Source of the DNA: Cellvibrio mixtus subsp. mixtus J3-8
GTDB taxonomy: Bacteria; Pseudomonadota; Gammaproteobacteria; Pseudomonadales; Cellvibrionaceae
DNA: 35,181 bases
Direction: 5' to 3'
Assembly (NCBI RefSeq): GCF_000766945.1
Contig: NZ_ALBT01000084.1
Location: 1 to 35,181 of the forward strand
The notes beneath the pieces were generated by a model. It was not told the origin of the DNA. It made no database searches and worked only from the letters and a program-made list of their open reading frames with translations. The number at the start of each line of letters is the position of its first letter. Position 1 is the stretch's first letter. Shown here one piece after another: positions 3,101 to 31,675 of this stretch. A program made the position numbers and the translations under genes.

Positions 3101-6100
3101 AGTTATCTGCGGAAATGGAGGAGTATGCTGCACCCGCATAGACACAAATCACATTTTTTCCAGAGGTACGCAAGGCACTTACCAAGGCGTCGCACACTTC
3201 ATTTTTGTGAACAAATATTAATACATTTTGATATTGGAATGAGTCTCCAACCGGCTTAGCATCAGGAAGTGCTTGCTTTTTCCAGCGAGAAACATAAGCC
3301 AATCCTTTAATACCTTTCTTTTTGCCCAACGCTCGTGATTGCAAATGTTTTTTTGCATCAATCCAGTAACGACTTTGAGAAAACGGATATGTCGAAAATG
3401 GTACACGCTGGCATTTATTGAACCGATGGAAATTCTTCCAATCAATATCTACACCCGACTGCCAAAGTTTACCGATAACTTCCAGTAAGTGAGCACCATC
3501 ATCCAGCTCACTTTGTTGATGACGCGTCAAATGAGCCACAAATTTTCCGTCTATTCCCTGATGCCGCTTAACAAGAGAGGTCAGTGCATTGCCGGGGCCA
3601 ACCTCGATGAAGAAATTTTTTGAAGCGGATGACAGATTGAGAATGCCAGAAGAAAACTCCACGGAATTCCGCAAATGATTCACCCAGTACGCAGGTGTTG
3701 TCACAAGTCTTTCCAATGCTGGCTTGCCACTTAGATTCGACATAAATGGAATGGTCATTTTTCCAAACTGGATATTTTCCCACGCCGTTTTAAATGTATC
3801 TAATATGTCATCCATCATATGTGAATGGAATGCATGGGAGGTATTAAGTTGTTTATTAACAATTTCCAATGCGGAAAGTTTATTTTTAAGTTGCTCAATA
3901 TTTTCCTGAGGGCCTGAAACCACAATATCCGTTGGGCTATTTACAGCAGCTATCTCGCAATCAGTATCTTTCAATAGATCAGCCAATTGATTGCGCTCCA
4001 AAAGAACCGACAGCATGCAACCAGGTTTCGCTGACTGCATTAATCTCGCCCGTATTGCTATTATTTTCAGCGCATCCGCCAGGCTAAATACACCAGAGAG
4101 GCAGGCAGCTACATATTCGCCAAGACTATGACCAATCATCGCTGCAGGCTTAATACCCCATGACATCAATAATCTTGCCAAACAATACTCGACAACAAAA
4201 ATTGCTGGCTGGGCATAGATGGTTTTATCAATATCATCCACGGCCTCACCATTTTGGGGATATAGCAACGCCCTGATATCAACACCGATTTCAGGCTTTA
4301 ACAGCTCGCTGCATTTATCAAGCTCATTGCGGAAATAGGGTTCCTGTTCATATATGCCTTTGGCCATATTGACATATTGTGCGCCTTGTCCGGGAAACAT
4401 AAATATTATTGGCAAGGAAGATCCAGCGTTAATCGTTTTCCGGCTCAATACATTTTTATCATTACTTAATAAATCTATTGCTTCATCATGCGATTCACAA
4501 ACAATAAACTGCCGGAAATCATGGAATTCACGTCCAACATGAAGGGTGTACTCAATATTATGCAGTGAAAGCGCGTTGTTGGTTAAAAATTGGTTGATCA
4601 TCTGCTGGCGCAAGTTTTCAATATCATTTTCTGTCTTGGCTGAAAGCAGCAACAATTTTTTATTTCTGTGTGAATTGGTCTCAGGAAGAGATTCATTTTC
4701 TTCCACAATCATGTGGACGTTTGTTCCACCAATCCCAAAGGAAGAAACCGCAGCACGCCTTGGCCGTCCATTATGCGGCCAATTTTTTTGCTCTACATTT
4801 ATATGGAAAGGTGAGTTTCCCAAATTAATTTTAGAGTTTAAATTATTGAAATTAATACTTGGCGGCAGCTGCTTATATTTAATTGCCTGTATTGTTTTTA
4901 TCAAACCGGCGATGCCGGCAGCAGCATCTAAATGACCGATATTTGCTTTAACGCTGCCAAGGGCGCAAGTATGGTTCGAGTTGTTGCCGAAACCGGCAGA
5001 TAGGGCCGATATTTCAATCGGATCACCTAAATGAGTGGCAGTACCATGGGTTTCAACATAATCAATGGTATCAGGTTGAATGCCGGATTTTTGAATAGCA
5101 TCGCGAATTGCCTTTGCTTGCCCGGGCATGCTCGGGGCAACATAACCGACTTTCTGATTACCATCGTTATTTATACCGATGCCTTTAATAACAGCGTGAA
5201 TGGTATCTCCATCCATTATTGCTTTATCAAGGCGCTTCAACAACACCATACCCAAACCGTTGCCATTACGAGTACCAGCACCTTGCTCATCAAATGGCCG
5301 GCAATGCCCATCAGGGGAATATATTCCCCCTTCTTCATATAAGTATCCTTCAGGGTAAAACTGCGAGATAGATGCCGCACCAGCTAAAGCCATATCACAT
5401 TTATTAGCAGTCAGGTTTAAACAAGCCTGTGCAATTGCAACAAGCGAAGTAGAACAAGCGGTGTTAAGGCTCAAGCTTGGGCCAGTAAGATTTAATTTAT
5501 ACGCTAATCGAGTGGCAATAAAATCTTTGTCACCACCCATTTTTACTGCCATCGCTCCCATAGCGGAGCGCAATTCAGTATTAGGTAAAATATTTTCCAG
5601 GAAATATCTACTATTACTGGCACCAGCAAAAACACCTATATTTCGCTCTTTGCTACAATCGCCATAACCACCGTGCTCTAAAGTTTCTAATGCGACCTCC
5701 AGCATCATGCGTAATTGCGGACAGGTAATCTCGGCTTCCCTGGGGGTAAATCCAAAATACGCTGCATCAAACATGTCATAACCATGGAAAACATGTCCTT
5801 TTTTTACATAGGCTGGATTTTCCAATACTTCCGGGTCAATACCCGCCGCCCTTAGTTCTTCGTCGCTAAATTCCTGGATAGACTCCAAACCAAGGCTTAG
5901 ATTGCTCCAATATTCTTCGATATTTTGCGCATCAGGAAAACGCCCGGCCATACCAATGATGGCAATCGGAACATTGGGATCCAGTGACTCATTAGCTGCC
6001 GGGGTTGACGCCAGCTCTGCACTAGCATCCGCTTGATTGGCATGGGATGCAATTGCTCCAGCTAACGCATGTATTGTGGTGTAGGTAAAGATTTCAGTGA

Positions 6101-9100
6101 CCGGGATATCAATTCCAATGTCATCCCTTATCCTTGCCTGAAGCCGTACAGCCAGCAGGGAATTACCGCCAACTTCAAAAAAATTCACATTTACACTGAC
6201 TTCAGGAACATTCAATAACTCACACCATATTGTATGAATTTTTTTCTCAAGCTCACTGCCAGGTAACGCCGGGAAATTTTCTTTAAGTAGTGCTTCATCT
6301 GTTTTTGGTAATTTTCGTAGATCAATTTTTCCATTATTGGTAAGCGGGAAATCATTCAATACAACAAATATCGCCGGCACCATATAACCAGGCAATGCCG
6401 CTTTTGCTATACCCTGTAACTCATCAATCAATATTTTCTTCAAATGAGTTGTTTTTTCTGAGGCATCGCCACAATTTAAAAAATCGACAGCAACGTAGGC
6501 AACAATACGTTTGCTTTCAAGTTCTTTCTCAGTAACTACAACTGCTTTATTAACGTGTCGATGGGTATTTAAAACTGTTTCAATTTCACCCAACTCTATA
6601 CGGTAACCACGGATTTTTACTTGCGAATCCATACGCCCCAGATAATCCAGGGAACCATCAGCAAACAATCTGACAATATCGCCTGTTTTATAAAATAATT
6701 TATTTTCATATCCTGGCAATTGGACAAATTTAGTATTGGTTAATTCAGGCTGATTGAGGTAACCGCGCGTTACGCCATCACCGCCAACATATAATTCACC
6801 AATACCGCCAGTAGGCACGCCCCCACCATGAGTGTTAAGCACTAACGCAGTCAGATCACACAACGGTTTTCCGATAAAACTTGCGTATTTCTGCTCACGG
6901 ACGATTTCCGGCGTTATCGCAAGATAAGTAACATGTACGGTAGTTTCAGTAATACCGTACATGTTAACTAACAACGGGGAATTATAACCACGGCGATTAA
7001 ACCAAGGCTCAAGTGCACTGAGATTAAGTGCTTCACCACCAAATATAATGTAACGCAAAGCGAAGCGAGCTCGCTGGTGTGCATCTTCCTGTAACAGGAA
7101 ATTAAAAGCACCAGGCGTTTGGTTTAATACAGTGACTTGTTCTTGTAATAGCAAACCGTAAAAATCCACAGGAGAACGGGCAGTCTCATGAGAAACAATT
7201 ACCAAACGCCCACCATGTGAAAGTGCGCCCCAAATTTCCCATACTGAAAAATCAAATGCATAAGAATGGAACAATGTCCAAACATCAGTAGAAGAGAATT
7301 CAAAATTGGACTTTGCAGCTTCCATTAACCGACTGACATTTCTATGCTCGACTAAAACACCCTTTGGTTTTCCAGTCGAACCGGATGTGTATATGACATA
7401 AGCAAGGTTCGCGGAGGTAAGCCCAAGCGCATTCACGCAGGGATTCTCTTCAGGCATATCCATGAGAATCGTGTTAAATTCATCATGATCAAGGCAAAGT
7501 GCATTACTTGCATTGATTGCGGGAACCCTATCCAGCAATTTATGTTGAGTAATGACCGTAACCAGGGAAGCATCTTTCAATATATAGTGGATTCGCTCTT
7601 CAGGGCTTTCCGGATCAAGGGGAACATAAGCTCCCCCCGCTTTAAGTATCCCCAGGATAGCAATCAACATCTCGAATGATCGATCCAAGAAGACACCAAT
7701 CAATGTGTCAGGTTTTATAGCCCTTTGCGTAATTAAATAATGTGCCAACCTATTAGCTTTCCGATTTAGCTCTCCATAAGCCATAGACTCATTATTAAAT
7801 GTTAATGCTACAGCATTTGCATTGATAGCCGCTTGCTGTTCAAACAACTGGTGAATACAGTCCTGTACAGGAAAAGACACATAATTTGCTTTTTGCTTTT
7901 TTAAAATTTCCCGCTCGACTTGCGATGAAATTCCGATTTGCAATACATTTTTTTCCGGTTCAGCAATAAGCGTATCTAATAGTACATTAAAATTTTCTGA
8001 AAAATTCTGGATAGTTTCCAGATTAAAAATATCTGAACTGTATTCCCAACCTAAATTAAATCCGTTTGCGGATTCACTGATATTTAAAGTGAGATCGAAT
8101 TTTGCAGTATTACCTTCACCTATACTTTCTGAACTTAACGAGACACCCGGAATATTAAAATTTCCCTTTTCATTATTCTGCATGACCAACATTATTTGAA
8201 ATATCGGGCTATAACTTGATGTTCGCTCCGGTTGTATCATTTCAACAATTTGGTCAAACGGAAGGTGCTGGTTTTCATAAGCAGCCAGCAGCATATTCTT
8301 GCTTTTTTCCAGCACTTGATAAAAATTGGGCGCGTCTGACAGATCACTGCGTAAAACCAATGTATTTCCAAAGTAACCAATCAAGCCACTAATCTCAACT
8401 TGGTCCCTGCCCGCTATCGGGCTTCCAATCACAATATCTGTTTCATTGCTATATCTTGCCAGCAAGATCGAAAACACAGCATGGATGCCCATAAATACCG
8501 TGGCCCCCTGCTTGCGACAAAAAGCACCGAACTGCTCAGCGAGTCCCACCGGGATGCTGCTTACCAAAGTACTACCTTTGAAAGTTTGGCGAACCGGGCG
8601 GGGGCGATCCAATGGAATATTATGGACAACAGGCAGATCACTTAATTGGGATCGCCAGTAACTTAATTGTTTAGTACATTTTTCACTTTTTAACCATTTT
8701 CGTTGCCATACAGCATAATCAACATATTGCAGAGGTAAAGGAAAAAGCGGATTGGGTGTATTAGAAATACAGGCGCTATATAGGCCACAAAATTCGTTGA
8801 TTAATATCGCCATGGACCAGCCATCAGAAGCAATGTGATGCATGGTAACCACAAGAATATGCTCGTCGCTGGCCAGCTTTATTAGTTTGGCTCTCAACAT
8901 CAAATCTTTTGAAAGATCAAATTGCTTGCTGGTCTCCTCTAAAATAATGCCCCCCATTAAAGAGGGGTCGCCAGCATTGCGAGTCAAATCCTTAATCGCA
9001 ATATCATAAGGTACAGCCTGGCTAATAAACTGATATGGTTCACCGTCCTGATCAGTAAGAATAAAAGTTCGCAAACTTTCATGGCGCTCAATAATAGCGG

Positions 9101-9449
9101 AAAAAGCCTTATTGATTGCGTCTATATTCAACTCTCCTTTAAGCCTCAACACACCCGGCATATTATAGTGGGAGCCGCCATCAATTTGATTTAACAGCCA
9201 TAAACGCTGCTGTTCAAAAGAGAGGACAAGTTTTTCCTCGGCGCGATTAGCACGAGGAATAATATTTAAATTAGGTTCATTTACCGATTGCTCTTCTAAT
9301 AATTTAATCAGGGCTGCCTTATTTTCCTGAATAGATAGCTTTAAATCAGGTGTCATGGCATCTTTTTGTGCCCTGTATGCGAGCGCACCGTCTTTTAGAT
9401 ATAAATAAATGCCTTTTTGGGCTGCGGCAAGCAATATACGGTTAGGCAT
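117..9449 (-). CDS. Hybrid NRPS-PKS: docking-C-A(Thr)-T-KS-AT-KR-T-terminal epimerase-like domain
   Basis: 3110-aa cytoplasmic megasynthetase. Domains in order (residues approximate): TubC-type N-terminal docking domain 1-55; C 70-500 with HHIASDG near 203; A 540-1060 with TSGSTGKPKG near 690 and GK near 1040; T with GGNSLL near 1095; KS 1150-1580 with Cys in TACSTSL (1331) and His in ETHGTAT (1469) and NIGHLD (1504); AT with GHSLGEY (1777) and HAFH (1875), the malonyl-type motif; KR with GGLGQVG (2312), active Ser and Tyr (2470); T with GGHSLL (2602); terminal condensation-superfamily domain 2660-3110. The hand-read A pocket is DFWNIGMVHK, the standard threonine code. The KR lacks an LDD loop, which fits an A-type reductase. 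There is no DH, ER or methyltransferase. The predicted product is Thr extended by malonate and reduced at the beta carbon. The terminal domain has epimerase-type signatures and HHSVMDG (2788), but VNGRD stands where epimerases have GHGRE and the catalytic Glu is absent. The ATG overlaps the preceding stop (TAATG), with GGAAGGA upstream. No thioesterase follows. Confidence 0.95.
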   Translation of the reverse strand: MPNRILLAAAQKGIYLYLKDGALAYRAQKDAMTPDLKLSIQENKAALIKLLEEQSVNEPNLNIIPRANRAEEKLVLSFEQQRLWLLNQIDGGSHYNMPGVLRLKGELNIDAINKAFSAIIERHESLRTFILTDQDGEPYQFISQAVPYDIAIKDLTRNAGDPSLMGGIILEETSKQFDLSKDLMLRAKLIKLASDEHILVVTMHHIASDGWSMAILINEFCGLYSACISNTPNPLFPLPLQYVDYAVWQRKWLKSEKCTKQLSYWRSQLSDLPVVHNIPLDRPRPVRQTFKGSTLVSSIPVGLAEQFGAFCRKQGATVFMGIHAVFSILLARYSNETDIVIGSPIAGRDQVEISGLIGYFGNTLVLRSDLSDAPNFYQVLEKSKNMLLAAYENQHLPFDQIVEMIQPERTSSYSPIFQIMLVMQNNEKGNFNIPGVSLSSESIGEGNTAKFDLTLNISESANGFNLGWEYSSDIFNLETIQNFSENFNVLLDTLIAEPEKNVLQIGISSQVEREILKKQKANYVSFPVQDCIHQLFEQQAAINANAVALTFNNESMAYGELNRKANRLAHYLITQRAIKPDTLIGVFLDRSFEMLIAILGILKAGGAYVPLDPESPEERIHYILKDASLVTVITQHKLLDRVPAINASNALCLDHDEFNTILMDMPEENPCVNALGLTSANLAYVIYTSGSTGKPKGVLVEHRNVSRLMEAAKSNFEFSSTDVWTLFHSYAFDFSVWEIWGALSHGGRLVIVSHETARSPVDFYGLLLQEQVTVLNQTPGAFNFLLQEDAHQRARFALRYIIFGGEALNLSALEPWFNRRGYNSPLLVNMYGITETTVHVTYLAITPEIVREQKYASFIGKPLCDLTALVLNTHGGGVPTGGIGELYVGGDGVTRGYLNQPELTNTKFVQLPGYENKLFYKTGDIVRLFADGSLDYLGRMDSQVKIRGYRIELGEIETVLNTHRHVNKAVVVTEKELESKRIVAYVAVDFLNCGDASEKTTHLKKILIDELQGIAKAALPGYMVPAIFVVLNDFPLTNNGKIDLRKLPKTDEALLKENFPALPGSELEKKIHTIWCELLNVPEVSVNVNFFEVGGNSLLAVRLQARIRDDIGIDIPVTEIFTYTTIHALAGAIASHANQADASAELASTPAANESLDPNVPIAIIGMAGRFPDAQNIEEYWSNLSLGLESIQEFSDEELRAAGIDPEVLENPAYVKKGHVFHGYDMFDAAYFGFTPREAEITCPQLRMMLEVALETLEHGGYGDCSKERNIGVFAGASNSRYFLENILPNTELRSAMGAMAVKMGGDKDFIATRLAYKLNLTGPSLSLNTACSTSLVAIAQACLNLTANKCDMALAGAASISQFYPEGYLYEEGGIYSPDGHCRPFDEQGAGTRNGNGLGMVLLKRLDKAIMDGDTIHAVIKGIGINNDGNQKVGYVAPSMPGQAKAIRDAIQKSGIQPDTIDYVETHGTATHLGDPIEISALSAGFGNNSNHTCALGSVKANIGHLDAAAGIAGLIKTIQAIKYKQLPPSINFNNLNSKINLGNSPFHINVEQKNWPHNGRPRRAAVSSFGIGGTNVHMIVEENESLPETNSHRNKKLLLLSAKTENDIENLRQQMINQFLTNNALSLHNIEYTLHVGREFHDFRQFIVCESHDEAIDLLSNDKNVLSRKTINAGSSLPIIFMFPGQGAQYVNMAKGIYEQEPYFRNELDKCSELLKPEIGVDIRALLYPQNGEAVDDIDKTIYAQPAIFVVEYCLARLLMSWGIKPAAMIGHSLGEYVAACLSGVFSLADALKIIAIRARLMQSAKPGCMLSVLLERNQLADLLKDTDCEIAAVNSPTDIVVSGPQENIEQLKNKLSALEIVNKQLNTSHAFHSHMMDDILDTFKTAWENIQFGKMTIPFMSNLSGKPALERLVTTPAYWVNHLRNSVEFSSGILNLSSASKNFFIEVGPGNALTSLVKRHQGIDGKFVAHLTRHQQSELDDGAHLLEVIGKLWQSGVDIDWKNFHRFNKCQRVPFSTYPFSQSRYWIDAKKHLQSRALGKKKGIKGLAYVSRWKKQALPDAKPVGDSFQYQNVLIFVHKNEVCDALVSALRTSGKNVICVYAGAAYSSISADNYSIDINSGGDFEALIKSVILDEHSPWQVVYMWGLSPAETHRSQAEFSVDLFEQSQKQGIQGLLKLVKAILAQRLDNIQLNIISENIHRVSGCEDISPANATITGLQKAMKLECPEVSCFQIDVDSAELNNRFSIKRVINDITNELLLAEREHDIALRNHRRWLHNFEYAYQEDYASSTTRKIREGGVYVITGGLGQVGLNIAEFIACVPNTKIALLSRSAFPATEEWENWCSEHGEKDKTSRKIRKLERVFASARSVELYQVDVSDCVQLEAIFLQIEEKLGAITGVVHAAGLAHGIIKPIQDVSEREFLDQYQTKVIALHALDKVLANREIDFCILTSTLASVLGGLGFSAYAAANAYMDAFAKQKNLHGYQQWTAINWDRWDFSAEEVANSGLSAMEGIKTFEYALTFSDIPQLLFSKRDISITAEIDKEKPESTDEPVNYSSRTLENEYVAARNDVERDLVKIWQDLLGVEKIGIHDNLFDLGGHSLLAIQLISKMKKAGYEILVRELIDSPTIAGVSETLNAQQHVTQAAYLYKYQEGDTVYSLPNKQLLFKSDFNNHWNVGTIFNIVDANEEYLQRALSELLQEQEGLRHVYYLDGATVKENVLGMDDLEVMEVVNFTSIEDENLSASIEAFANKVQGSLDLTKKLHKFVLFKCPKGQPDRFLWVVHHSVMDGFSVNIFFQEIFTRYLSYVAQVEFTPLPKTQTIVEWGNYLHQFVNSPEVNGDIEYWTSREWDKVGTLIDYPDGLLKNMGNNPAEYGNDFSRTRTLAKEFSAALIDGAAVYKNVTSADVIFSAFTAAVAGFNGSSHVRFEMIVNGRDKIIRNVDVDRTIGWFADWAPIVTEIDFSKSPLEQAVDYHNQLAQMPNAGLTFNAIRHLSEDEELRSNLRALGNAEFNINFVPPALRNMDELKNTNLPLHLISGAKESAGQLVGSQRSSIVWPSYIQVGVNQNCYEFTWMARDNIYNPDNIEKVLELWISNIINILEEANKQ

Positions 9450-9463
9450 TAAAATATTCCTTC
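9447..9463 (-). promoter_or_regulatory. Ribosome binding site and stop/start overlap coupling two synthetase genes
   Basis: On the minus strand the stop codon of the upstream gene and the ATG of the 3110-aa synthetase share a base (TAATG). GGAAGGA lies about 9 nt upstream, inside the end of the preceding gene. This arrangement predicts translational coupling, so the LLM pseudo-module protein and the hybrid synthetase should be made in linked amounts. Confidence 0.75.
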
Positions 9464-12400
9464 CTCAATAATTTCTTCATGTGTAATAGCAGCATTAGTG
9501 CTATTTAATTTAAATGCGTCAATACAAGCGCTAAGCGCTTCCAAAGAGCCATATTCGGCTAGATAATAAAATGGAATGTTTATTCCGATTGATTCATTTA
9601 TTTGCTTTAGCATAAAAAAAGCATCAATTGCTTCTCCACCGAGAGCGAAAAAATTATCGTGGATACTAATTTTTTCCCGAGGAATATACTTCCTCCACAC
9701 CTCACACATATATTTTTCTGTATCAGTTCGCGGAGAAAAATATGGGCTTTCGAATTTTTTTGGAGGAAAAGGCGAATTGGCCTCATTGGTAGCCATAGCA
9801 CATGAGCTACTTTTACTGTATCTAAATTGCGCAGGAAGCGAGTTGGCCGGTAAAAATTCGCTGCAATAATCACTTAAGTTCAAAGATTTATTTTTATCAT
9901 TAATTAAATTTTTTAACCGGTTCAACGACGAGAGACCATTCAGGACAGACTCATCATCCATCCAATCTACAAGACATGCCACTTCATTGACACCGGCATC
10001 CGCAAGGTCATGAACGATATGAGCGACGCTTTCTGGCGTACCAATCAATGCACCTTTTTGCACATAATGGTCAAATGCAAAATCAGCCATTCCCGCCAAT
10101 GTTTTTTCATCTACATCCTCCACAGAAATCTTGGGATTTTTTAAAAGACGTAGAATTAATGATGCATGCTCTCTAATGTATGCCGAAAAAGGAGACCTGG
10201 CTTTATTTAGTGTCTCATCAATATTTTCGCCCAGGAACGTGTGAATCATAACAGTCACCCGCCCCTTCTCCACATCATGCCCCGCGGCCGCTAAAGCCTC
10301 TCGATATATTGCAACTTTTTCTTTAAGGTCTGCGATAGGCTGCCCCAACATATGCGTGAGAACATTAACACCTTGCCGCCCTGCTTCTCTAAATGCATCA
10401 GGGCTGCCTGCTGTGGTTAACCATATCGGTAACTTTTTCTGGATTGGCTTTGGAAATATTTCAATCTCAGCATTAGCTTGATTGCCATCTTTTTCCAATA
10501 TGCGTTTTCCGGACCACAGATCGTATATCACGTTAAGTGATTCGGCGGTTACATCCCTTCTATTGGAAAAATTTTCTGGTGCCACAACAAAATCGCGAGG
10601 GTGAAAGCCGCTTGCCACGCCAAGACCAATACGACCATTCGAAAGGTTATCAACTACTGACCACTCTTCAGCTATTCGAACTGGATGCTGCAAGGGCACA
10701 ACAACGCTACCCGCTCTCAGTTTTATCTGTTTGGTAACGGTAGCCAGGGCCGCATTCAATAATGCGGGTGTTGGGTAAAGGGCTCCCACAACACCAAAAT
10801 GCCGCTCGGGAGTCCAAAGCGCTTCAAAATTATTGTTGTCGGCATAGATTGCAGATTTTAGGTACAAATCATATCTGTCGGTAACTTTGGATGATTCAGT
10901 ACCAAAATAGAAAAGGCTAAAACCAATTTTATCATTAGCTGGACTATGGGATTTTGTTTCCTTAGTCACTACATCAGCAACCAGGTATTGTTTGGCATCA
11001 TCTCCTAGCACGACAGACACTTTGGCTGTTTCTACATCAGGATGAGCACAAATAACGTCTTCTATATTTTTTCGATTTATCGAATGATGACGAAAACTAA
11101 TAACGTCTGCAGTAGAATCAACCAACTCAAAAGTTCCATCATCCATCAACCGTCCTTTTTGCGACAAATGGTTTTGTCGAACAAGAGATGCCTGTTTGAA
11201 TATATTCATTACAGGAATCTTTCTTGCTGGAACAGCGATTATTTGAGCATCGTAAAAATTGCCCCACACTCCAGCTGGAGAAATAATTTCGTCGTCATTT
11301 TTTAAAATTACATTTTTTGGATACAAGGGTTTACTGTATCGTTGAACACCACTATGCACATGCGCGCTCGATACGGGAAAGGCTAATCGCCAAATCTCGC
11401 CGGGGTTTCCATGGCGGAGCTCCAAAAATTCGGCATTTGGAAAGAGAGAAGTTAAATATCTATAATATTTACTAGCCGAGAAATCACTACTGAGCAACAA
11501 CAATCTAAGGGATTGGGAGGCACAAACAATAGTAGAGGAAGTGACTGAACTTAATTTCTGAATATCCTCATGCGTAGCATTAAAAACACTAATTTGATTA
11601 TCATTTACATAAGTCATCCATTGATTAACAGGCAACCCCTCATTGGCGATAACGAGACATGCCCCCACTTTAAAGGCCGCAAACAAATCAAATAAAAATA
11701 ATTCAGAGTTTAATTTGTTAAATGATAAAAAATTATCATTTTCAGAAATTGAATAATGCGCACAAATTGTTTCAATAGTATCTATTGCTATTGAATTGCT
11801 GACGTATGATGATTTTTTTTCATCATCCAGGTTAAAAAAAGCAATAACATCATTCGGCGTGTTTACCGGCAGAATAGCCTTGTCGGCATTGATTTCAGAT
11901 AAGCGATTAAACTCATCCAGCAATATTACATCAATTGATGACTGGGAATGCAGGGCGGAGTTTTTTAATGAGTCACTCAGTATTATCTTAACACCGATTT
12001 CCTTCATCCAGCGCAAGTAACTATCATCGATAAGTAAAGGGTCTACATTAATGTAACTGGCACCAGTTTTTAAAACGCCAAGCAATGCAGAAACAGTAAC
12101 ATCCGCCGCTGAAGAAACTATTGCAATCAGCGCTTTCGTATTACCTGAAATGCGATTTATATTTTCGGCAACTGCATTTGAGGCAGCCAACAAATTAGCA
12201 TAACTAATATTCCGGGAATCACACCGCAAAGCAGTTTTTGAAGGGTTTTTTTCCACACAATCGGAGAAGAAATGATAAATATTTTGCCGAGGAACTGGCG
12301 ATTCAATTTGCGGTGATGGGCTTACCGGATTTTCAGCGACACTACCTGCAAAGCCAGAGCTAACAACAGATACCAGATAGTTATCAAAGCTTTTTGATAA

Positions 12401-13804
12401 TGCCCGGACAAAATCGTCTCTATAAACTTCAGGATTATAAATCCACTCCGCAGTAATACTTTCATCACGAAAAATCAATCTTAAAGAGAGATTGTGCGCG
12501 CCGCCACTTTTAATCATTTTAAAAAAGGATAGCGTTAGATTATTACCGCATTCGATATGGGAAAATTGCCGGAAATCCTGCACATCAAAGGCAACATCAG
12601 CAGCAAAACTGGAGTCATACCCAACACGTTCATTAAAACCTGGCAGTTGGCGACCGAAGCTAAATAGAAAATCCCGGAAATCTGGTCGTTGGCTAACATT
12701 TACCTCAAAAGCCGCTATCGATTCGTAGGGACCAATACTGCTGGAAAACTCATACCAATACCTATTTGGATCTGGTATTGCTATTGTTATTTTCTCGTTA
12801 CCTGTAAGGCGCGATAAAGCAAGCAAAAATAAACCACATATTCCAACAAATGGCGAAACATCTGAACCAACGCAAATTGATTCAAAGCTATTAAATGTGG
12901 TCACTTCAATATCAGTATCAATGGAAACCTTATTACATAGATCAATCGCCAATTCAGGGGCCTGGCCAACAAGCGCAGAGCCTAAAGCTGGATTGCATAA
13001 GCGGTCCAAATATAATTTAGGTTCATTGGTAGAAGACTTACAAGAATCACCACTCTCAATCCATTTAATATATGCAGAGTAAGGAAAATTGTTAGGGGAT
13101 GTATCATCGTAAATCGCGGTGCTGTTCGAATAAAATTCAAAAATTTCACTTACTATTAATGACAATGACCACATATCTGTTGCTATATTGTGCGCAGTCA
13201 TTATAAGGAAATGGTGTTTATCACCTTGCTGCAACAACGTTGCCCGCAACATGAAATCATTAGCGATATCAATTAGCCTGGCATTTTCACGTTTAATGAT
13301 ATGATGGCATTGAGACAATTCATTGTCATGGGCTACAAGACATTCCAACTCAATGGAAAAGCCCAGGGGGCTAATAACCCTCCCTTCAATATCATTTATA
13401 CGGTCTGTATATACAGTCCGCAAAACCACATGCTTTTCAAGGACAGCGACAAATGCATCGCGCAGCAATTGCTTATCGAGCTCACCATTAATTTCAAATA
13501 CGAGTGTTGTATTTAGGTTAACCTTTTCTCCCAATATCTTTTGTAGCAACCAATATTCCTTTTGCTCCCTGGAAATAACGTGTACAGAATCGATAGATCC
13601 AGCCGTCAGAAACCCAAGAGAAGGTGATTTTATTTTGAATCGATCAGATGATAGCTTGCAAAATAGGGCGGGGTTACCTTCTTGAAAAGCACCATCGATC
13701 TTTACTAACGAATTCTTAATAAATGGCTGCCTTATAGCCAATTTTCCCACCGCAACATAAGAACAACTGTTAGCAAATTTTAAGCTACTAGTAGTATTTC
13801 CCAC
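9449..13804 (-). CDS. Degenerate NRPS-like protein (C*-A*-LLM-T*) carrying an intact luciferase-like monooxygenase domain
   Basis: 1451 aa with NRPS module layout but every NRPS active site altered. The N-terminal C domain (about 75-500) has HNIATDM near 206 in place of HHxxxDG, so the catalytic second His is Asn. The A-like region (about 520-955) has no Gly-rich TSGSTG loop, no YGxTE, no TGD and no C-terminal GK lysine. The carrier domain reads LGGEAID near 1390, with Ala (GCA) where the phosphopantetheine Ser belongs. By contrast, residues 958-1300 form a well-conserved LLM domain of the natural-product type (FSLFYFG, WTPERHF, AEEWSVVDNLS, ASGFHPRDF), paralogous to the one in the Thr module at 27650-28657. 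The reading frame is open throughout, so this is selected protein, not a decayed gene. Inferred role: an FMN-dependent oxygenase held on a non-catalytic NRPS scaffold. The C-terminus (HEEIIEEGIF) is acidic and may dock to the next protein. The start is GTG, the first option after an in-frame TAA, and is uncertain. Confidence 0.9.
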   Translation of the reverse strand: MGNTTSSLKFANSCSYVAVGKLAIRQPFIKNSLVKIDGAFQEGNPALFCKLSSDRFKIKSPSLGFLTAGSIDSVHVISREQKEYWLLQKILGEKVNLNTTLVFEINGELDKQLLRDAFVAVLEKHVVLRTVYTDRINDIEGRVISPLGFSIELECLVAHDNELSQCHHIIKRENARLIDIANDFMLRATLLQQGDKHHFLIMTAHNIATDMWSLSLIVSEIFEFYSNSTAIYDDTSPNNFPYSAYIKWIESGDSCKSSTNEPKLYLDRLCNPALGSALVGQAPELAIDLCNKVSIDTDIEVTTFNSFESICVGSDVSPFVGICGLFLLALSRLTGNEKITIAIPDPNRYWYEFSSSIGPYESIAAFEVNVSQRPDFRDFLFSFGRQLPGFNERVGYDSSFAADVAFDVQDFRQFSHIECGNNLTLSFFKMIKSGGAHNLSLRLIFRDESITAEWIYNPEVYRDDFVRALSKSFDNYLVSVVSSGFAGSVAENPVSPSPQIESPVPRQNIYHFFSDCVEKNPSKTALRCDSRNISYANLLAASNAVAENINRISGNTKALIAIVSSAADVTVSALLGVLKTGASYINVDPLLIDDSYLRWMKEIGVKIILSDSLKNSALHSQSSIDVILLDEFNRLSEINADKAILPVNTPNDVIAFFNLDDEKKSSYVSNSIAIDTIETICAHYSISENDNFLSFNKLNSELFLFDLFAAFKVGACLVIANEGLPVNQWMTYVNDNQISVFNATHEDIQKLSSVTSSTIVCASQSLRLLLLSSDFSASKYYRYLTSLFPNAEFLELRHGNPGEIWRLAFPVSSAHVHSGVQRYSKPLYPKNVILKNDDEIISPAGVWGNFYDAQIIAVPARKIPVMNIFKQASLVRQNHLSQKGRLMDDGTFELVDSTADVISFRHHSINRKNIEDVICAHPDVETAKVSVVLGDDAKQYLVADVVTKETKSHSPANDKIGFSLFYFGTESSKVTDRYDLYLKSAIYADNNNFEALWTPERHFGVVGALYPTPALLNAALATVTKQIKLRAGSVVVPLQHPVRIAEEWSVVDNLSNGRIGLGVASGFHPRDFVVAPENFSNRRDVTAESLNVIYDLWSGKRILEKDGNQANAEIEIFPKPIQKKLPIWLTTAGSPDAFREAGRQGVNVLTHMLGQPIADLKEKVAIYREALAAAGHDVEKGRVTVMIHTFLGENIDETLNKARSPFSAYIREHASLILRLLKNPKISVEDVDEKTLAGMADFAFDHYVQKGALIGTPESVAHIVHDLADAGVNEVACLVDWMDDESVLNGLSSLNRLKNLINDKNKSLNLSDYCSEFLPANSLPAQFRYSKSSSCAMATNEANSPFPPKKFESPYFSPRTDTEKYMCEVWRKYIPREKISIHDNFFALGGEAIDAFFMLKQINESIGINIPFYYLAEYGSLEALSACIDAFKLNSTNAAITHEEIIEEGIF

Positions 13805-13855: not shown

Positions 13856-15823
13856 TTATTTAAAAAGCTTGCTCTTTATTGACGAAAAAAAGCCAAAGAA
13901 GGAATTTCCCGCTAACAGCCCAAGCAGTATTGGCAAGAAATTATTATTATTTTTAAAAAAATAAAAAAGGACTGCAAAGAAAATGCAATTCAGCCCCAGC
14001 CAACTTAGGACATATGTATTCCTGAATATGGAATATTGTTCTTTCTGATGAGAGAGTGCAGCCTCTTTACTGCTAGCATAGCCCGGCGTTTCCAAGCCCT
14101 TGGTGCCCCAACTATTATCATGGGCATTACATATGGCGTACATCCAAATGGCAAACCACGATGCTGGTAATAAAGATATTGTCTGCACACTGTATTTCAA
14201 TACCGGGAATAACTGACGCGCATGAAAAATCGCCGTAGCTAAAGGAATAACAGCTATATATGCAACGGCCATCATCAATGCAAACATCCATTCACCATTT
14301 TTGATAATGGTAACAGTGCAACTTAAAATAAATAATGTTTGTAAAAGAATAGAACCGACAATAATGCTCTTCGCTACTTTATCCAATTTTCCCCTGTAGC
14401 AGGCGATAAACTGAAAGATGATTGACGCTGACATAAGTAGTGATAACGTACTTATATATACTCCGGATATAGAGCTAGCCCCTTCTGCCTTTATTGCTAT
14501 TTTAGCAAGTTCAACATAAGAATAAAGAATAAATGCAGGGAAAAACCAATCTTTAATAAGCAATAACAATTGATAAACCGAGGCAAACAACATCGACAAC
14601 TTTTCATTAGCTGACAGGTTTTTACGTGATAAATAGTCGGACATTTGAGACAGAAAACTAATACGGCAGGCAAGATAACCATTACACCAACGTTTTCGTT
14701 GACGCAACAGCTCCTCAAATGAATGGCAATAATCCGTAATGGCTAACGAAGCCTTGGCAAATCCAAGTTTCCATTTAGACTCAGGCCTTGTAGCAATTTG
14801 CGCACAAAGAACACGATCCTCAGCTAAATATAAAATTGATTCCGAAGGCTTTAGTGCACCCAATCCCTTGAAATAAATATCCAATGGTTGGTCTAAAGCA
14901 TCCGAATCACTGTTACTTTTTAATGCATCCCATCGGATAGCGCTAAACTGCCCCGGAATTACACTTAAATACCCACTGGCAACCTCGGCAGGCCATTCAA
15001 CCAGCATACATTTAGCAAATGTAATAAATTGCCACATTTTTAAAAAATCTGAAGAACCATCCGGCGATGTAAGGTATATCCCACTTGCCACAGCGCCTAT
15101 TGTTTTATCATCGTTGAAAACTTTCATAGTTTCGGAGATTGCAGTATTTACAGGTGCAGTACCCACATCCATTTGAATACAAAATGCAGGAGAGATGACC
15201 TGGCAGAAAACCCGATAAAACCACCAATGTGAATCGAGTTTTCCCGCATTTTTATTTTTAACTCCCACTAATAACTGGATTGGAGTGATCTCATCATTAA
15301 CATGATGGCCAGAAGAATCCCGTGAGCCAAGACGCAAACTCTCCTTATAAATTACACCCCAATGAAGCTCATCAGTCGCACCATTTAAATGCCGGTTTGA
15401 AATTATTTCCCTGATCCTTTTCAAATGAATGTTTGCTTTACATATTTGAATACCGGTTGAACCATCATTTTCATTAAAGAAGAATCCGAAGTCCTCCAGG
15501 AAAATCCTGGTTGAACTTGCCAGTGCTTCCACTCCGTCAACGACGATACAAATCGTAATCCCTCCTGTATCAATGATGGATTCTTCGCGGAGCATAAATT
15601 CGATATTGTTTACGATAGCAGATAAAGACGAAATTAACGCTTCAACCGGCTCGTTATATATCGTAATGCATAAAGCAATTCCACCACCGTCGAGCTTAAG
15701 AAACTCAATATCATCAAGTGAGGTTTTTACTAGATTTAGATATTTATTGTCTTTAAAAAAATCAAACCTATTAACATGAGGTTGATCTTGTTCAACTATC
15801 AAACAATTATTTTCCTGATACAT
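13856..15823 (-). CDS. Chitin synthase-family membrane glycosyltransferase (GT2)
   Basis: 655 aa. The N-terminal half is a cytosolic GT-A catalytic domain: YNEP near 57, VVDG near 110, NKNAGKLDSHWWF near 195 (like the K-K-SHRWFF region of chitin synthases), MDVGTAP near 220, VIPGQFSA near 295, EDRVL near 335, and QRKRW near 376 (the QxxRW processivity motif). The C-terminal half has about seven hydrophobic segments and HDNSWGTKG near 572, a motif typical of eukaryotic-type chitin synthases. This set fits chitin synthases better than bacterial NodC, hyaluronan or cellulose synthases. The expected reaction is processive transfer of N-acetylglucosamine or a related sugar from a UDP-sugar at the inner membrane; donor and acceptor here are unknown. 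The gene lies 61 nt after the FAAL-NRPS gene and 51 nt before the LLM pseudo-module gene, so it is probably in the same operon. The Shine-Dalgarno sequence is poor (GGAA too far upstream). An amino-sugar decoration of the lipopeptide is inference. Confidence 0.88.
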   Translation of the reverse strand: MYQENNCLIVEQDQPHVNRFDFFKDNKYLNLVKTSLDDIEFLKLDGGGIALCITIYNEPVEALISSLSAIVNNIEFMLREESIIDTGGITICIVVDGVEALASSTRIFLEDFGFFFNENDGSTGIQICKANIHLKRIREIISNRHLNGATDELHWGVIYKESLRLGSRDSSGHHVNDEITPIQLLVGVKNKNAGKLDSHWWFYRVFCQVISPAFCIQMDVGTAPVNTAISETMKVFNDDKTIGAVASGIYLTSPDGSSDFLKMWQFITFAKCMLVEWPAEVASGYLSVIPGQFSAIRWDALKSNSDSDALDQPLDIYFKGLGALKPSESILYLAEDRVLCAQIATRPESKWKLGFAKASLAITDYCHSFEELLRQRKRWCNGYLACRISFLSQMSDYLSRKNLSANEKLSMLFASVYQLLLLIKDWFFPAFILYSYVELAKIAIKAEGASSISGVYISTLSLLMSASIIFQFIACYRGKLDKVAKSIIVGSILLQTLFILSCTVTIIKNGEWMFALMMAVAYIAVIPLATAIFHARQLFPVLKYSVQTISLLPASWFAIWMYAICNAHDNSWGTKGLETPGYASSKEAALSHQKEQYSIFRNTYVLSWLGLNCIFFAVLFYFFKNNNNFLPILLGLLAGNSFFGFFSSIKSKLFK

Positions 15824-15884: not shown

Positions 15885-18800
15885 TTATTGAAGTTCTTCC
15901 AATTCAGTGGCCATAATTAGAATTTTATTGGCTAATAAAGAAATTTTAGGGTTATTGAAAAGCTCACGAATACTAATATCAATACCTAAATCACTTTTAA
16001 TAATAGAAAGAAGTTTTGTTCCTAGTAATGAGTTTCCGCCAATTTGGAAAAAGTCATCGTTTGTTCCAATCATACGTCCTGCCAAATTACGATCACCAAG
16101 CACAGACTCCCATATTTCGACCAGCATTACTTCAAGCTCATTTTCAGGAGCTACATAACTTGCTTCGAAAGCCTGGCTTATAGCATCAACAGGTGATGGT
16201 AATAAGCGTCGTTCGATTTTTCCCAATGTAGTAAGGGGCAGTTCATCTAAATAGACGAACGCGCTGGGAATCATATAAGCAGGCAATTTTAATTTTAGCT
16301 CTTCACGCAATTGAGCTTCATCAAGGCTTTTGTTAAACCAGGGATACGTGACCACGTAGGCAATTAAATGCAAATCACCTTTATTGAAATAGGTAGATAT
16401 CACAGCGCTTTTAATGCTACTGAGGTCACATAACGCTTTTTCTATTTCAGCAGGCTCAATACGAAAACCATTTATATTTATCTGTGAATCTTTACGCCCG
16501 GCTATAATTATATTTCCATCAGGAAGCTGCCGCGCAAGGTCTCCCATTCTGTACAAACGCGATCCAGGCACTTTAGAAAATGGATTGGGAATAAATTTTT
16601 CAGCGGTAAGGCGTGGTGACTTATTGTAGCCTCTGGATAGCTGCATACCTTCTATATATATTTCGCCAATACCACCAACGGGAACCTGCGAAAGGTTTTC
16701 ATCTAAAATATAAATAATCGTATTGGACAAAGCGCTGCCAATCGGCGTAGTAAACTCATTTTTTTCGTAGCCATATGGCACCCGGAAACAAGCGACATCA
16801 GATGTGGTTTCTGTGGAACCATAGAAATAACTGAATTGTACATTTGGTTGAAAATGCTGGATTCGTTTTATCAAACTATGATGCAGCACATCCGCCCCGA
16901 TAAACCAATGTTTAATAGAGCTGATTGAGGCAAACTTTGCTGCATCGGTATCTAGCATAATTCGCAAATGCGCAGGCGAAGAGGCAGTAAATGTTACATT
17001 TTCACTATTTAAGGCATTAAGAAATGCAACCGGATTTTCCAGCCCATTCTCATCAAGAATGACTAGTTTCGCTCCGGCACAGAGCGGGAAAAAAATTTCC
17101 CTTTCAGCCCGTACAAAATTAATTGGTGTGGCATGCAGAACCGTATCTTCCGCATTGATTCCATATTCAGAGAGCATCCATTCAGTTCTATTAATGATAC
17201 CTTCATGAATACCAACAACACCTTTGGGCTCACCTGTCGAGCCAGAGGTATAAATTATGTAAGCCGCATTGGAACCAATTATATTAACGGATAAATTTTT
17301 TACCTTATCGGCGTATCTAGACAAGCTGTTCTTAATTGATAAAAAAACAATATTATCGCTATATGAAAGCTCGCTCGCCTCTTCTCCGAGAATTACTTTT
17401 ACTTCTGCATCATCGATTATATATTCACAACGTTTTTTGGTAACACTGGGCTCCAGCAATATGCAGCATGCTCCCGCTTTTAATGCTCCAAAAAAAGCAA
17501 TTATCGTATCAACAGAGCGCTTGCAATAAATAGCCACTCTTGTCTCAGGCAACACACCATTATCAACCAATGCGTGAGCTAGACAGTTAGCTTTGCGATT
17601 TAGTTCTTCATAGGTCAGGCTATCAATACCGCAGACAACAGCTGTCGCATTCGGCACCATCTTTACCTGCCGCTCAAAAACCTGATGAATCCCAAAATGC
17701 CTGGGCAATGCAGAAAGTGCATTTTGATTGCCTTTGATTAACGATAACGGAATGGTTGGTGGCAATGGTATATCGCATATTTTCTGCGTTAAGTTTGATA
17801 CGGCAGATGCAAGAATAGCTTTATAACAATCGGCTAAACGGCTAATTGTCTTCTGCTCAAAGAGGCATTTATTATAATTAAATCGAAATAGTATGCCCGC
17901 GTCACACTCAACTGCCGTTAAGCTCAGTTCTGCTTGAGCCAAATCTGTTTTTAATCCGTTCGATTGGTATGAGGAAAGGCTAAAGGAATCCAGGGTCAAA
18001 GAACTATCGGCTGCACCAAAATAGAAGGGTGCACTACCCTTAAGCAGGCTTTCCTGCTGCAAGGAAAATCTTACATTCGGAAATGTCATTCCCGCAGCCA
18101 GAGAATCATTTGTAAATGTATCCCTAATAATTAACTGCAAAGGGTATGATTTATTTTTAATAACATGAATAAAAGTGTTCTTTAATTTATCCAGGTGCAC
18201 CTTAAAAGAATCATTGCCATTTACCTGGCTTCTAATAGGTTTTATATCGACGAAACAACCCACCGTTTCAGCAAACTTCAGAGGCCGCTCTGATATTGGG
18301 GAGCCAACAATTATGTCTTGCTCACCCATAAATCGATAAAGCAAAACTTGATAGACGGATAACAGAAACATATACAACGTTGAATTTGTTTCTAACAATG
18401 TTCGCTCTACTTTTTCAAATTGATCACGGGAAAGGTAAAAATCAAAATTATCCCCGGAAAAATCAAGCGTGGTTCCTCGAGGATGATCAATAGGAAGCTC
18501 TGTTAAACTTCCAGCACCAGCCATGTAATCACGCCAAAAAGATTGCATTTCAACGACGTGCGCACTATTGATAAGCGCAGCATTTTTTTGCGAAAACACG
18601 CTATATTGATTTATTTTTTGCAAATGTTTTTTAATTGAGCTTTGATAAGCTTGATAATAATTTGCTATCTTTTTAATTAACAATTGCACAGACCATGCAT
18701 CTGCTGCGATATGATGAATAACAACATTCAATACATAATTATTATCAGCGACCTTATATAAGTAAATCCTGATAACCGGGTCATATTGCAAATTAATAGG

Positions 18801-21212
18801 TTTTAGGATATTAGCCTTTAATTCGACATCCAATTGATTGGCATTCCATAGGCTGGCATCTAAAAACCGAAAATAATCCTCGATCAGGAAATCACTTTTT
18901 ACAATCTGAAATGGCACACCGTTTTTTTCAATATAAACCGAACGAAGAATCTCTTGCTCTTCGATTAGTTGCCGAACTGATTCCCTAAAATGCTCAACAT
19001 TAATATCCCTTTGATTTTCACTCGATGACAGTTTTAAGGTTAACGACAAATTATAATTAGCGCTGTCAGGGTGTAGATTTTGAAGATACCAAAAACCCAT
19101 TTGCTGATGGGAAATATTGTCATTGGCTACTGATGATGCAGAAACCAACAAACTTGCCGTGTTATTTTTATCCTTTATAGATTCTAATTCAGAGATATGC
19201 GTCATCAACTCCAGCAATGTTGGACCTGACAATAACCTTGACATGTCGTAGGCCACACCTTTGTCGGCTTCGATCCTGTATTGCAAATGCGCAGCCTTGA
19301 GCGAGTCCACCCCAAAGTTAACTATTGAAACATTCCAGCTAACATTATCAACATCAATATTCAGCTCGTTCAAAAACAATGATTTTACATATGCATAATT
19401 GTCATTATCTCCAGATGTTGCTGCGCTATATTCTTCTTTAATTTTTTGTTTGGCATCTTCTTCGTGCGCAGTAGCAAAAACGCCCTTCAAATAAGCCAAC
19501 CTACACTCCGAGCGACGCACTTTACCGCTGGAGGTTATAAATATTTTCCCGGGTTTAACCAGAATGATTTCATCAAGATACAGACCATGAGACAAAAGAA
19601 CAGCTTCTCGTATAAGCGTCTCGACATTAGCACCTTCCGCTTTCCTGACTGAACTTCTTTCCATCTCCTGAATTAAAATGATTTTTTGTTTTTCTTTCGT
19701 TTCCACTGAAAAACAAGCGCCTCTTCCAGCGCGCAAGTGTTTAGAGCTATTCTGTGCCGTAGTTTCAATATCCTGGGGGTAGTAATTTTTACCCCTTACG
19801 ATAATAAGATCCTTAAGGCGACCGGAAACGTACAGTTGTTTATCATGTAAAAACCCCATATCGCCGGTTCTTAAAAATGTCTCATTTGGATCAGTGGAAT
19901 TATTGATATGAGCATTAAAAGATGCGGCTGTTAAATCCGGATTTCCCCAATAACCCAATGCGACACTAGGCCCCTTAACCCAAATCTCCCCCACTTTATT
20001 GTTTTCACATTCGCGTAAGGTTTTCGGATCAACGATACGAATAGCGGTATCAATTCCTGCTTGCCCGCAACTCACAAGTGATACTGAGCTTTCGTTTGAA
20101 GCGCTAGTTTTTATAATGTGGAAATCTAAATTCTCACGCTCCAGATTCAATGCAACTGGCTGATCCGCTTTATTAACGCCGGATATCATCAATGTAGATT
20201 CTGCCATTCCATAGCATGGATAAAATGCATTATATTTAAACCCACATATTTTAAATGCATTAAAAAACCGCTCCAATGTTGTGGAATTGACAGGCTCAGC
20301 ACCATTAAAAGCCAAATCCCATGAACTCAAATCCAAATGCTCTTTTTCTTCTTCAGTAATTCTGCTGACACATAAATCATAAGCAAAATTGGGAGCACCA
20401 CTGGTGGTCGCTTTATAATTGGAGATCATTTCCAACCATGTAATTGGCCTGCGTAAAAACGTAACAGGAGACATTAGAATGGCAGTAGTACCCAAATACA
20501 TCGGGTGCAGAATATTCCCTATCAGTCCCATGTCATGGTATTGAGGTAGCCAACCAGCGACGACCGAATTTCTGGTGTGATTAAAGCTTGAGAAAATCAT
20601 TGATTGGTTATGGAGCAAATTTTCGTGCGATACCATAACCCCTTTCGGAGAACCTGTTGACCCGGATGTATATTGCAAGAACGCCAATTGCTTCAGTTGG
20701 AAATCAGGCTTCGCCCACAATATCTTTTTATCGGAAAGCACTTCACTAATATCGATGATACTTTCTTCATTCGCCAACACCTTTTGCACCAGCAAGGACT
20801 TGGTGATTTGTAATTCATTTTTTCCAATTAAGATAAACTCTGCCTGGCAATTATCTTTGATTGCTTTAAGGCGGATCCAGTCTTCTGCGCGCGCGCGCGG
20901 AGGATAGACAGGTACACAGACTACACCTGCATATAAACAGCCCCAGAATGCTTCAATGAACTCCAATCCCGGCGGGAATATCAGCAGCGCCTGAGAGTGC
21001 GCATTGGCTTGCTGAAGCCTGGATGCTATGGATTTTGCTTTTGAATCCAGTTCTCCGTAGGTTATCGAGGTACTGACCAACCCCTCATTAGTTAAAAACC
21101 TATAGGCAACATGGTCTGGTTTTACCTCAGCCCAGTGCCGGGCAATATCCACTAGGCTGGTTAATTCAATATCTTCAAATTGATGCTTACAACTACTGTA
21201 ATTATTTTCCAT
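15885..21212 (-). CDS. Lipid-loading NRPS: FAAL-ACP-C-A-T
   Basis: 1775 aa from the chosen ATG. Domains (approximate): fatty acyl-AMP ligase 10-590 with TSGSTGSPKG near 185 and the FAAL-typical LPQYHDMGLIG; carrier with GVDSLKA near 640; C 690-1120 with HHIAADA near 835 (Gly of HHxxxDG is Ala); A 1165-1690 with TSGSTGEPKG near 1325, GDLARQ and a C-terminal GK; T with GGNSLL near 1725. The FAAL activates a free fatty acid as acyl-AMP and loads it on the ACP; the C domain would acylate the first building block. The A domain core motifs are intact, but the segment that normally reads FDxSxW is FVRAERE, so Asp235 is Val with Arg at 236 and 239 (hand-read pocket VRRAFGFSDK). This argues against an ordinary alpha-amino acid. 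The C-terminus MATELEELQ resembles the acidic tails of two other synthetases here. A TTG at 21233 would add seven residues; ATG at 21212 is preferred because GGA precedes it by about 15 nt, though neither site is strong. Confidence 0.93.
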   Translation of the reverse strand: MENNYSSCKHQFEDIELTSLVDIARHWAEVKPDHVAYRFLTNEGLVSTSITYGELDSKAKSIASRLQQANAHSQALLIFPPGLEFIEAFWGCLYAGVVCVPVYPPRARAEDWIRLKAIKDNCQAEFILIGKNELQITKSLLVQKVLANEESIIDISEVLSDKKILWAKPDFQLKQLAFLQYTSGSTGSPKGVMVSHENLLHNQSMIFSSFNHTRNSVVAGWLPQYHDMGLIGNILHPMYLGTTAILMSPVTFLRRPITWLEMISNYKATTSGAPNFAYDLCVSRITEEEKEHLDLSSWDLAFNGAEPVNSTTLERFFNAFKICGFKYNAFYPCYGMAESTLMISGVNKADQPVALNLERENLDFHIIKTSASNESSVSLVSCGQAGIDTAIRIVDPKTLRECENNKVGEIWVKGPSVALGYWGNPDLTAASFNAHINNSTDPNETFLRTGDMGFLHDKQLYVSGRLKDLIIVRGKNYYPQDIETTAQNSSKHLRAGRGACFSVETKEKQKIILIQEMERSSVRKAEGANVETLIREAVLLSHGLYLDEIILVKPGKIFITSSGKVRRSECRLAYLKGVFATAHEEDAKQKIKEEYSAATSGDNDNYAYVKSLFLNELNIDVDNVSWNVSIVNFGVDSLKAAHLQYRIEADKGVAYDMSRLLSGPTLLELMTHISELESIKDKNNTASLLVSASSVANDNISHQQMGFWYLQNLHPDSANYNLSLTLKLSSSENQRDINVEHFRESVRQLIEEQEILRSVYIEKNGVPFQIVKSDFLIEDYFRFLDASLWNANQLDVELKANILKPINLQYDPVIRIYLYKVADNNYVLNVVIHHIAADAWSVQLLIKKIANYYQAYQSSIKKHLQKINQYSVFSQKNAALINSAHVVEMQSFWRDYMAGAGSLTELPIDHPRGTTLDFSGDNFDFYLSRDQFEKVERTLLETNSTLYMFLLSVYQVLLYRFMGEQDIIVGSPISERPLKFAETVGCFVDIKPIRSQVNGNDSFKVHLDKLKNTFIHVIKNKSYPLQLIIRDTFTNDSLAAGMTFPNVRFSLQQESLLKGSAPFYFGAADSSLTLDSFSLSSYQSNGLKTDLAQAELSLTAVECDAGILFRFNYNKCLFEQKTISRLADCYKAILASAVSNLTQKICDIPLPPTIPLSLIKGNQNALSALPRHFGIHQVFERQVKMVPNATAVVCGIDSLTYEELNRKANCLAHALVDNGVLPETRVAIYCKRSVDTIIAFFGALKAGACCILLEPSVTKKRCEYIIDDAEVKVILGEEASELSYSDNIVFLSIKNSLSRYADKVKNLSVNIIGSNAAYIIYTSGSTGEPKGVVGIHEGIINRTEWMLSEYGINAEDTVLHATPINFVRAEREIFFPLCAGAKLVILDENGLENPVAFLNALNSENVTFTASSPAHLRIMLDTDAAKFASISSIKHWFIGADVLHHSLIKRIQHFQPNVQFSYFYGSTETTSDVACFRVPYGYEKNEFTTPIGSALSNTIIYILDENLSQVPVGGIGEIYIEGMQLSRGYNKSPRLTAEKFIPNPFSKVPGSRLYRMGDLARQLPDGNIIIAGRKDSQININGFRIEPAEIEKALCDLSSIKSAVISTYFNKGDLHLIAYVVTYPWFNKSLDEAQLREELKLKLPAYMIPSAFVYLDELPLTTLGKIERRLLPSPVDAISQAFEASYVAPENELEVMLVEIWESVLGDRNLAGRMIGTNDDFFQIGGNSLLGTKLLSIIKSDLGIDISIRELFNNPKISLLANKILIMATELEELQ

Positions 21213-21291
21213 TTTTTTAATTTTTCCATTCAATCATTCATGCGCTTAATTAATTTTTATAAAGTCACATAAATATATGTATATAAAGTGA

Positions 21292-31664: not shown

Positions 31665-31675
31665 TCAATCTCCGT
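31658..31675 (-). promoter_or_regulatory. GTG start, ribosome binding site and overlap with the preceding NRPS stop
   Basis: On the minus strand the upstream gene ends GAG TGG TGA, and the next gene starts at one of the two GTG codons in the same bases. GGAG lies 8 nt before the second GTG (31661) and 5 nt before the first (31664), which favours the second and a 4-nt GTGA overlap. No ATG serves as an alternative near the docking-domain start. Translational coupling of the two synthetases is expected. Confidence 0.65.

Follow-up and report, generated by a model that had tools for sequence, protein, structure and literature searches.

A division-1 chitin synthase homologue set in an NRPS/PKS operon of Cellvibrio mixtus and recurring beside peptide-product genes in Cellvibrionaceae

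The window, by which we mean the whole stretch of 35,181 nucleotides analysed here, makes up the entire contig C20 of the Cellvibrio mixtus genome (5.18 Mb in 50 contigs) and carries the only chitin synthase (CHS) gene copy of that genome. Nine cluster genes were identified in the window, every one of them on the minus strand:

117..9449, minus strand: hybrid NRPS/PKS with TubC_N docking, C, A (Thr code), PCP, KS, AT, KR, PCP and C/E-type C-terminal domain (Pfam)
9449..13804, minus strand: NRPS with C, degenerate A, MupA/Atu3671-type luciferase-like monooxygenase and PCP (Pfam; TIGR04020, 425 bits, cut-off 244)
13856..15823, minus strand: CHS homologue, division-1 (fungal-type), 655 aa, ATG start, without Chitin_synth_1N (profile, fold, tree)
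15885..21233, minus strand: NRPS starter with FAAL-like AMP ligase, ACP, C, A and PCP (Pfam/NCBIfam); 1782 aa from a putative TTG start
21350..23761, minus strand: MacB/FtsX-type permease of an exporter (Pfam; darobactin-exporter model match below cut-off)
23752..24474, minus strand: ABC ATPase of the exporter (Pfam)
24508..25758, minus strand: HlyD-type periplasmic adaptor of the exporter (Pfam/NCBIfam)
25839..31664, minus strand: NRPS with TubC_N docking, C, A (Thr code) plus luciferase-like monooxygenase, PCP and C/E-type domain (domain matches)
31658..35179, minus strand: NRPS truncated by the contig end, with PCP, C, A and PCP (Pfam)

The CHS gene is separated by 61 and 51 nt from the synthetase genes on its two sides, as the preliminary description had reported, and all three lie on one strand. 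No terminator-like site was found in either of these gaps, in a scan of positions 12500-22000 that returned 11 sites versus 8.1 expected by chance and thus has little power. In protein P0002, FAAL and ACP domains precede C-A-PCP, as in a FAAL-NRPS lipopeptide cluster, the FAAL label in the window coming from strong NCBIfam matches that yet fall below the curated cut-offs. The A domain of the 15885..21233 protein has no Asp at position 235, where one is normally present, and those of the 117..9449 and 25839..31664 proteins both read DFWNIGMVH, which we take to be the Thr code of A domains; one of the latter two proteins also carries a luciferase-like monooxygenase. In the C domain of the 9449..13804 NRPS, Ala replaces the first His of HHxxxDG.

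The cluster is incomplete, being cut at both contig ends. A carrier-domain repeat, at which the assembly broke, supplies the same 53 bases to window positions 35129-35181 and to positions 1-53 of L093, the first bases of contig C5; further NRPS genes lie at the start of C5. The shared bases are no proof that the window and C5 adjoin, and the genes of C5 were kept out of the cluster as predicted here. A polysaccharide deacetylase gene (PF01522, Polysacc_deac_1, NodB-like family; L093:11955-12905) lies near these NRPS genes.

The predicted frame of the CHS gene was confirmed exactly, with zero internal stops, and the motifs that had been read in it are all present, namely, YNEP (56-59), MDVGT (218-222), PGQFSA (290-295), EDR (335-337), QRKRW (375-379), and SWGTKG (571-576), the catalytic and switch motifs (DVGT, EDR, QRRRW type, SWGTKG) included. 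Searched against chitin synthase families, as the preliminary description had recommended, the protein matched PF01644 at 88.6 bits (E 5.7e-25; curated Pfam cut-off, 25), far beyond chance, and a search with profile A1 gave E values of 3e-92 to 1e-75 for CHS versus 2.6e-4 for hyaluronan synthase and 0.0086 for cellulose synthase. The best-matching solved chain was 7wjm, a chitin synthase of Phytophthora sojae (E 1e-42), and the whole-enzyme fold, membrane part included, is retained. Identity to fungal and oomycete chitin synthases is about 22%; 43 positions are conserved in the window's clade and the eukaryotic CHS rows alike, among them the equivalent of Phytophthora E495 (mutant in the PDB), and only 3 fixed differences were found. 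Relative to Saccharomyces cerevisiae Chs1, Candida albicans Chs2, and P. sojae Chs1, the window CHS differs in its bacterial operon setting and in having no N-terminal regulatory domains. No Chitin_synth_1N (PF08407) match was obtained with it in Pfam at E 0.01; bacterial CHS members are described as being without this domain in the available part of Goncalves et al. (PMC5122149), and given this absence PF08407 is a marker of the eukaryotic branch only. By family, fold, and conserved catalytic residues, the window gene is thus predicted to be an intact division-1 chitin synthase that would make a chain from UDP-GlcNAc.

Several other identities and origins of the gene were considered and rejected. 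That it encodes an ordinary bacterial exopolysaccharide synthase is ruled out by profile, fold, and tree. It had no matches in phage and plasmid collections, and none of the 23 viral-contig stretches that fit a pattern encoded a relative. Nor does base composition hint that the CHS gene alone arrived recently (G+C of 0.382 versus 0.396, 0.397, and 0.414 in the synthetase neighbours).

In a tree of 33 rows (27 CHS, of which 23 are bacterial and 4 eukaryotic, and 6 bacterial GT2), from which NodC, HasA, and BcsA rows are missing, the 27 CHS and 6 GT2 rows split at 100/100, and the window CHS does not join an ordinary clade of bacterial polysaccharide synthases. Profile, fold, and tree together therefore support the earlier claim of a eukaryotic-type chitin synthase inside an NRPS/PKS operon. 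The 23 bacterial CHS rows form a single group (100/97) and the four eukaryotic rows another (91/91), in a tree for which the program warned of long branches, including where the outgroup joins. The window CHS falls in a group of 9 rows (8 Cellvibrionaceae and Massilia; 100/99), with G021 as its nearest relative (92/96), and the remaining two rows of the family, G010 and G001, form a pair in another part of the tree (98/92). Since these two stand apart from the window group, at least two gains or losses on the starred branches are required to explain the link to peptide clusters. Two eukaryotic rows, L040 and L042, derive from eukaryotic-looking contigs in MAGs labelled Crocinitomicaceae and Desulfosporosinus; in the L042 CHS, otherwise conserved stretches contain in-frame stops, as in a ciliate-like code.

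A survey of 144 Cellvibrionaceae genomes revealed CHS matches in 10 of them, at 11 loci, of which the G049 locus, fragmentary and on a contig of 5.3 kb, was left out. Peptide-product genes lie near CHS at all 10 remaining, full-length loci. Those outside the window are arranged as follows, FAAL and several other labels having been taken from BLAST to the window's own domains:

G040 contig 32: FAAL, NRPS, ABC, CHS, NRPS; gaps of 91 and 95 nt
G136 and its near copy G135: HlyD, ABC, permease, CHS, ABC, FAAL, P450, KS, NRPS; gaps of 34 and 62 nt in G136
G010: NRPS, then CHS after 73 nt
G001: thioesterase, CHS, YdjC, FAD protein, two sulfotransferases, penicillin amidase, ABC, FAAL-NRPS
G021: CHS 881 nt from a same-strand FAAL-NRPS, with a small opposite ORF between
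G040 contig 60: CHS between two acyltransferase-3 genes, with A-PCP-TE and thioesterase genes within a few kb
G014: radical SAM enzyme nearest to XyeB (below cut-off), C39 exporter, 2OG oxygenase, HlyD, ABC; gaps of 50 and 13 nt
G025: YcaO, LanB-type parts, and nitroreductase upstream, LuxR and LuxI around CHS; gap of 381 nt to an opposite-strand gene

Thus, the CHS gene recurs beside different FAAL-NRPS sets, the pattern that the preliminary description had proposed looking for in other genomes. Gaps of 13-95 nt surround CHS in five clusters besides G001, the window's included, and a looser association is seen at three of the 10 loci (G021, G025, and G040 contig 60). Identity between most of the CHS loci is 31-41%, with the catalytic residues kept. 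No near-identical cluster, and so no otherwise identical one without CHS, was found in 143 family genomes; protein P0003 was matched in 12 of these 143 at 1e-60, with identities of 31-47% outside its own genome among the matches listed. The G014 cluster also holds, before the C39 exporter, a 52-aa ORF with a double-glycine-like leader (L020:4462-4620), a possible cyclophane RiPP precursor.

The association with NRPS genes was also quantified, the P values being guides only, as related genomes are not independent. CHS lies within 10 kb of a condensation domain at 7 of the 10 loci versus at most 1.27 expected, an upper bound (P 5.8e-6); without the near copy G135, the count is 6 of 9 (P 2.7e-5), and without the window also, 5 of 8 (P 2.3e-4). 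The 10 kb radius was picked after the loci had been seen, G001 is barely inside it (9.9 kb), and the nearest C domains of G135 and G136 were taken from BLAST. Other radii gave 4/10 at 3.5 kb (P 6e-4), 4/10 at 5 kb (P 0.002), 6/10 at 8 kb, and 7/10 at 15 kb. The three loci with no condensation domain within 10 kb have NRPS-like genes, a cyclophane-type RiPP set, and a YcaO/LanB RiPP set, one each.

Beyond the family, full-length CHS matches among 390 genomes of the order were confined to Cellvibrionaceae (3 genomes), and 398 genomes of the phylum yielded one further genome with a strong match (G716). A scan of a genome collection, which relies on two short peptide patterns and is no census, returned 22 CHS loci, 6 of them already in the family set. 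The Marinomonas CHS locus carries DUF1800 and DUF1501 genes (Pfam), and a DUF1800/DUF1501-like pair, judged from size and position only, lies by CHS in Pectobacterium, Agrobacterium, Allorhizobium, and Rhizobium; the same type of setting is reported in the available part of Goncalves et al. 2016 (PMC5122149).

That a CHS gene lies in a bacterial secondary-metabolism cluster, one in Cellvibrio, is already published (PMC5122149). The part of that paper available describes bacterial CHS, places the copies of C. mixtus and Teredinibacter turnerae within secondary-metabolism clusters, and proposes a single transfer of eukaryotic division-1 CHS to bacteria. Its enzymes are of the same family as ours and likewise without Chitin_synth_1N, and its C. 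mixtus cluster spans 35 kb (window, 35.2 kb), so that the published locus may be the window locus or its orthologue. NRPS and FAAL genes are, however, not described in that part of the text, and the recurrence across the family near peptide-product genes, the RiPP settings, and the CHS-YdjC overlap in a FAAL-NRPS cluster with sulfotransferases go beyond what is in print there. Besides one sentence of PMC5122149, we found no publication on NRPS or FAAL genes adjoining a bacterial CHS, which is weak evidence of absence, and the available text of PMC9692312 links no CHS to turnercyclamycin in Teredinibacter (0 matches for chitin).

The pairing of CHS with peptide genes in Cellvibrio and its relatives suggests that peptide products receive an amino sugar or a short chain resembling chitin. 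For the window, we propose that CHS is a lipopeptide tailoring enzyme, by which GlcNAc or a short chain from UDP-GlcNAc becomes part of the exported product, and we give this proposal a roughly even chance of being right. The FAAL-like domain would load a fatty acid, and the NRPS/PKS proteins would extend it with amino acids (two Thr, as read from the A-domain codes) and a ketide. The membrane-embedded CHS would transfer GlcNAc, the presumed donor sugar here, from UDP-GlcNAc and make one or a few beta-1,4-linked residues rather than a chitin fibre; these would be incorporated covalently into the lipopeptide, and the HlyD-ABC-MacB proteins would export the product, presumably in this order of steps. 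Hydroxyl acceptors would exist, as two A domains carry the Thr code. Counting against the proposal, only one of the 13 other bacterial CHS rows, Polaromonas, has an NRPS-like neighbour, others having DUF1800/DUF1501-type genes beside CHS, and the association is looser at three of the ten Cellvibrionaceae loci. The product idea of the preliminary description, a lipopeptide bearing an amino sugar or a short chitin-like chain, which we still only infer, gains because CHS recurs by different FAAL-NRPS and RiPP sets and because the CHS and deacetylase genes of G001 overlap. Glycosylated FAAL-NRPS lipopeptides of the hassallidin type are similar in having a FAAL starter, NRPS, and a glycosyltransferase gene in the cluster, but the known ones are made with soluble glycosyltransferases, whereas a membrane polysaccharide synthase is found here.

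In chitin synthases, the chain passes through the enzyme's own membrane channel. Given this channel, a meeting of chain and exported peptide in the periplasm, or use of an N-acyl-glucosamine primer, is as plausible as direct glycosylation. Such a primer is chemically possible because N-propanoyl, N-butanoyl, and N-glycolyl glucosamine are reported to serve yeast Chs2 as GlcNAc acceptors (PMC4007471). If the tailoring proposal is true, a eukaryotic-type polysaccharide synthase would have been turned into a tailoring enzyme of peptide natural products across Cellvibrionaceae, which would open a further way of making glycosylated lipopeptides and RiPPs, new to the field, and possibly link Nod-factor-like chemistry with NRPS chemistry; bacterial chitin synthases, to which no role could be assigned in 2016, would also gain a function. 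A wider version, in which bacterial peptide antibiotics, both lipopeptides and ribosomal peptides, carry a chito-oligosaccharide made by a captured eukaryotic-type CHS, and in which the chain could be a delivery tag for competitors' chitin-uptake systems or a mimic of host or symbiont signals, we consider unlikely.

Alternatively, CHS could make a free secreted chito-oligosaccharide or a thin chitin exopolysaccharide that is co-regulated with the lipopeptide and unjoined to it. Chitin synthases are channel-forming polymerases, the window CHS keeps the entire membrane part with SWGTKG and QRKRW, and export through the enzyme's own channel fits a free oligosaccharide equally well as a conjugate. 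Moreover, Pectobacterium, Agrobacterium vitis, and Rhizobium relatives have CHS with no NRPS by it, and an exopolysaccharide or oligosaccharide is proposed for Pectobacterium, A. vitis, and Rhizobium in the available part of Goncalves et al. (PMC5122149). Against a free product, none of the nine window genes was matched by Pfam to polysaccharide export or chitin handling, CHS is tightly set inside the synthetase operons of several different clusters, and it occurs in RiPP gene sets too; on balance, we regard this explanation as somewhat unlikely.

The rhizobial Nod factor pathway includes NodC, NodB, NodA, and NodH. It resembles the present system in pairing a GlcNAc polymerase with acyl chemistry, and the G001 gene set, which adds a deacetylase and sulfotransferases, may be seen as an echo of Nod factor synthesis. 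The two differ in that CHS here belongs to the eukaryotic division, FAAL/NRPS would carry out the acylation, and the G001 deacetylase is of the YdjC family. By analogy, the amino sugar might be a building block, the CHS product being N-deacetylated and its free amine accepting the (lipo)peptidyl thioester, with NRPS replacing NodA. In G001, the CHS gene overlaps the YdjC-type deacetylase gene (PF04794, 121 bits) by 4 nt, in one cluster with FAAL-NRPS and two sulfotransferase genes, both on the same strand, and this pairing favours an amine-linked variant in G001; a NodH-type sulfotransferase is also listed in one CHS region in the available part of Goncalves et al. (PMC5122149). However, the YdjC protein does not reach the cut-offs that NCBIfam sets for carbohydrate deacetylase and chitin disaccharide deacetylase, and the pairing occurs at only 1 of the 10 loci. 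In the window, cut as its cluster is, neither a deacetylase nor an N-acyltransferase is found among the nine genes, and the deacetylase gene of C5 may well lie outside the cluster. The building-block route seems to us quite unlikely.

Finally, CHS could be a passenger gene, transferred and retained by chance with no role in the product, as its rarity (10/144 family genomes) and the movement of bacterial CHS between species, described in the available part of PMC5122149, would allow, but its conserved catalytic residues at 31-41% identity between most loci, its repeated placement near peptide-product genes, the overlap with YdjC in G001, and the short gaps in the five other clusters make this very unlikely.

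Among the 13 other bacterial CHS rows, an NRPS-like gene was found beside CHS in one, a Polaromonas MAG (L031:296-10008). In this MAG, CHS overlaps an A-PCP-TE gene by 8 nt, and ABC, DUF1800, and DUF1501 genes follow, so that the locus, as predicted from its genes, appears to join both known CHS settings.
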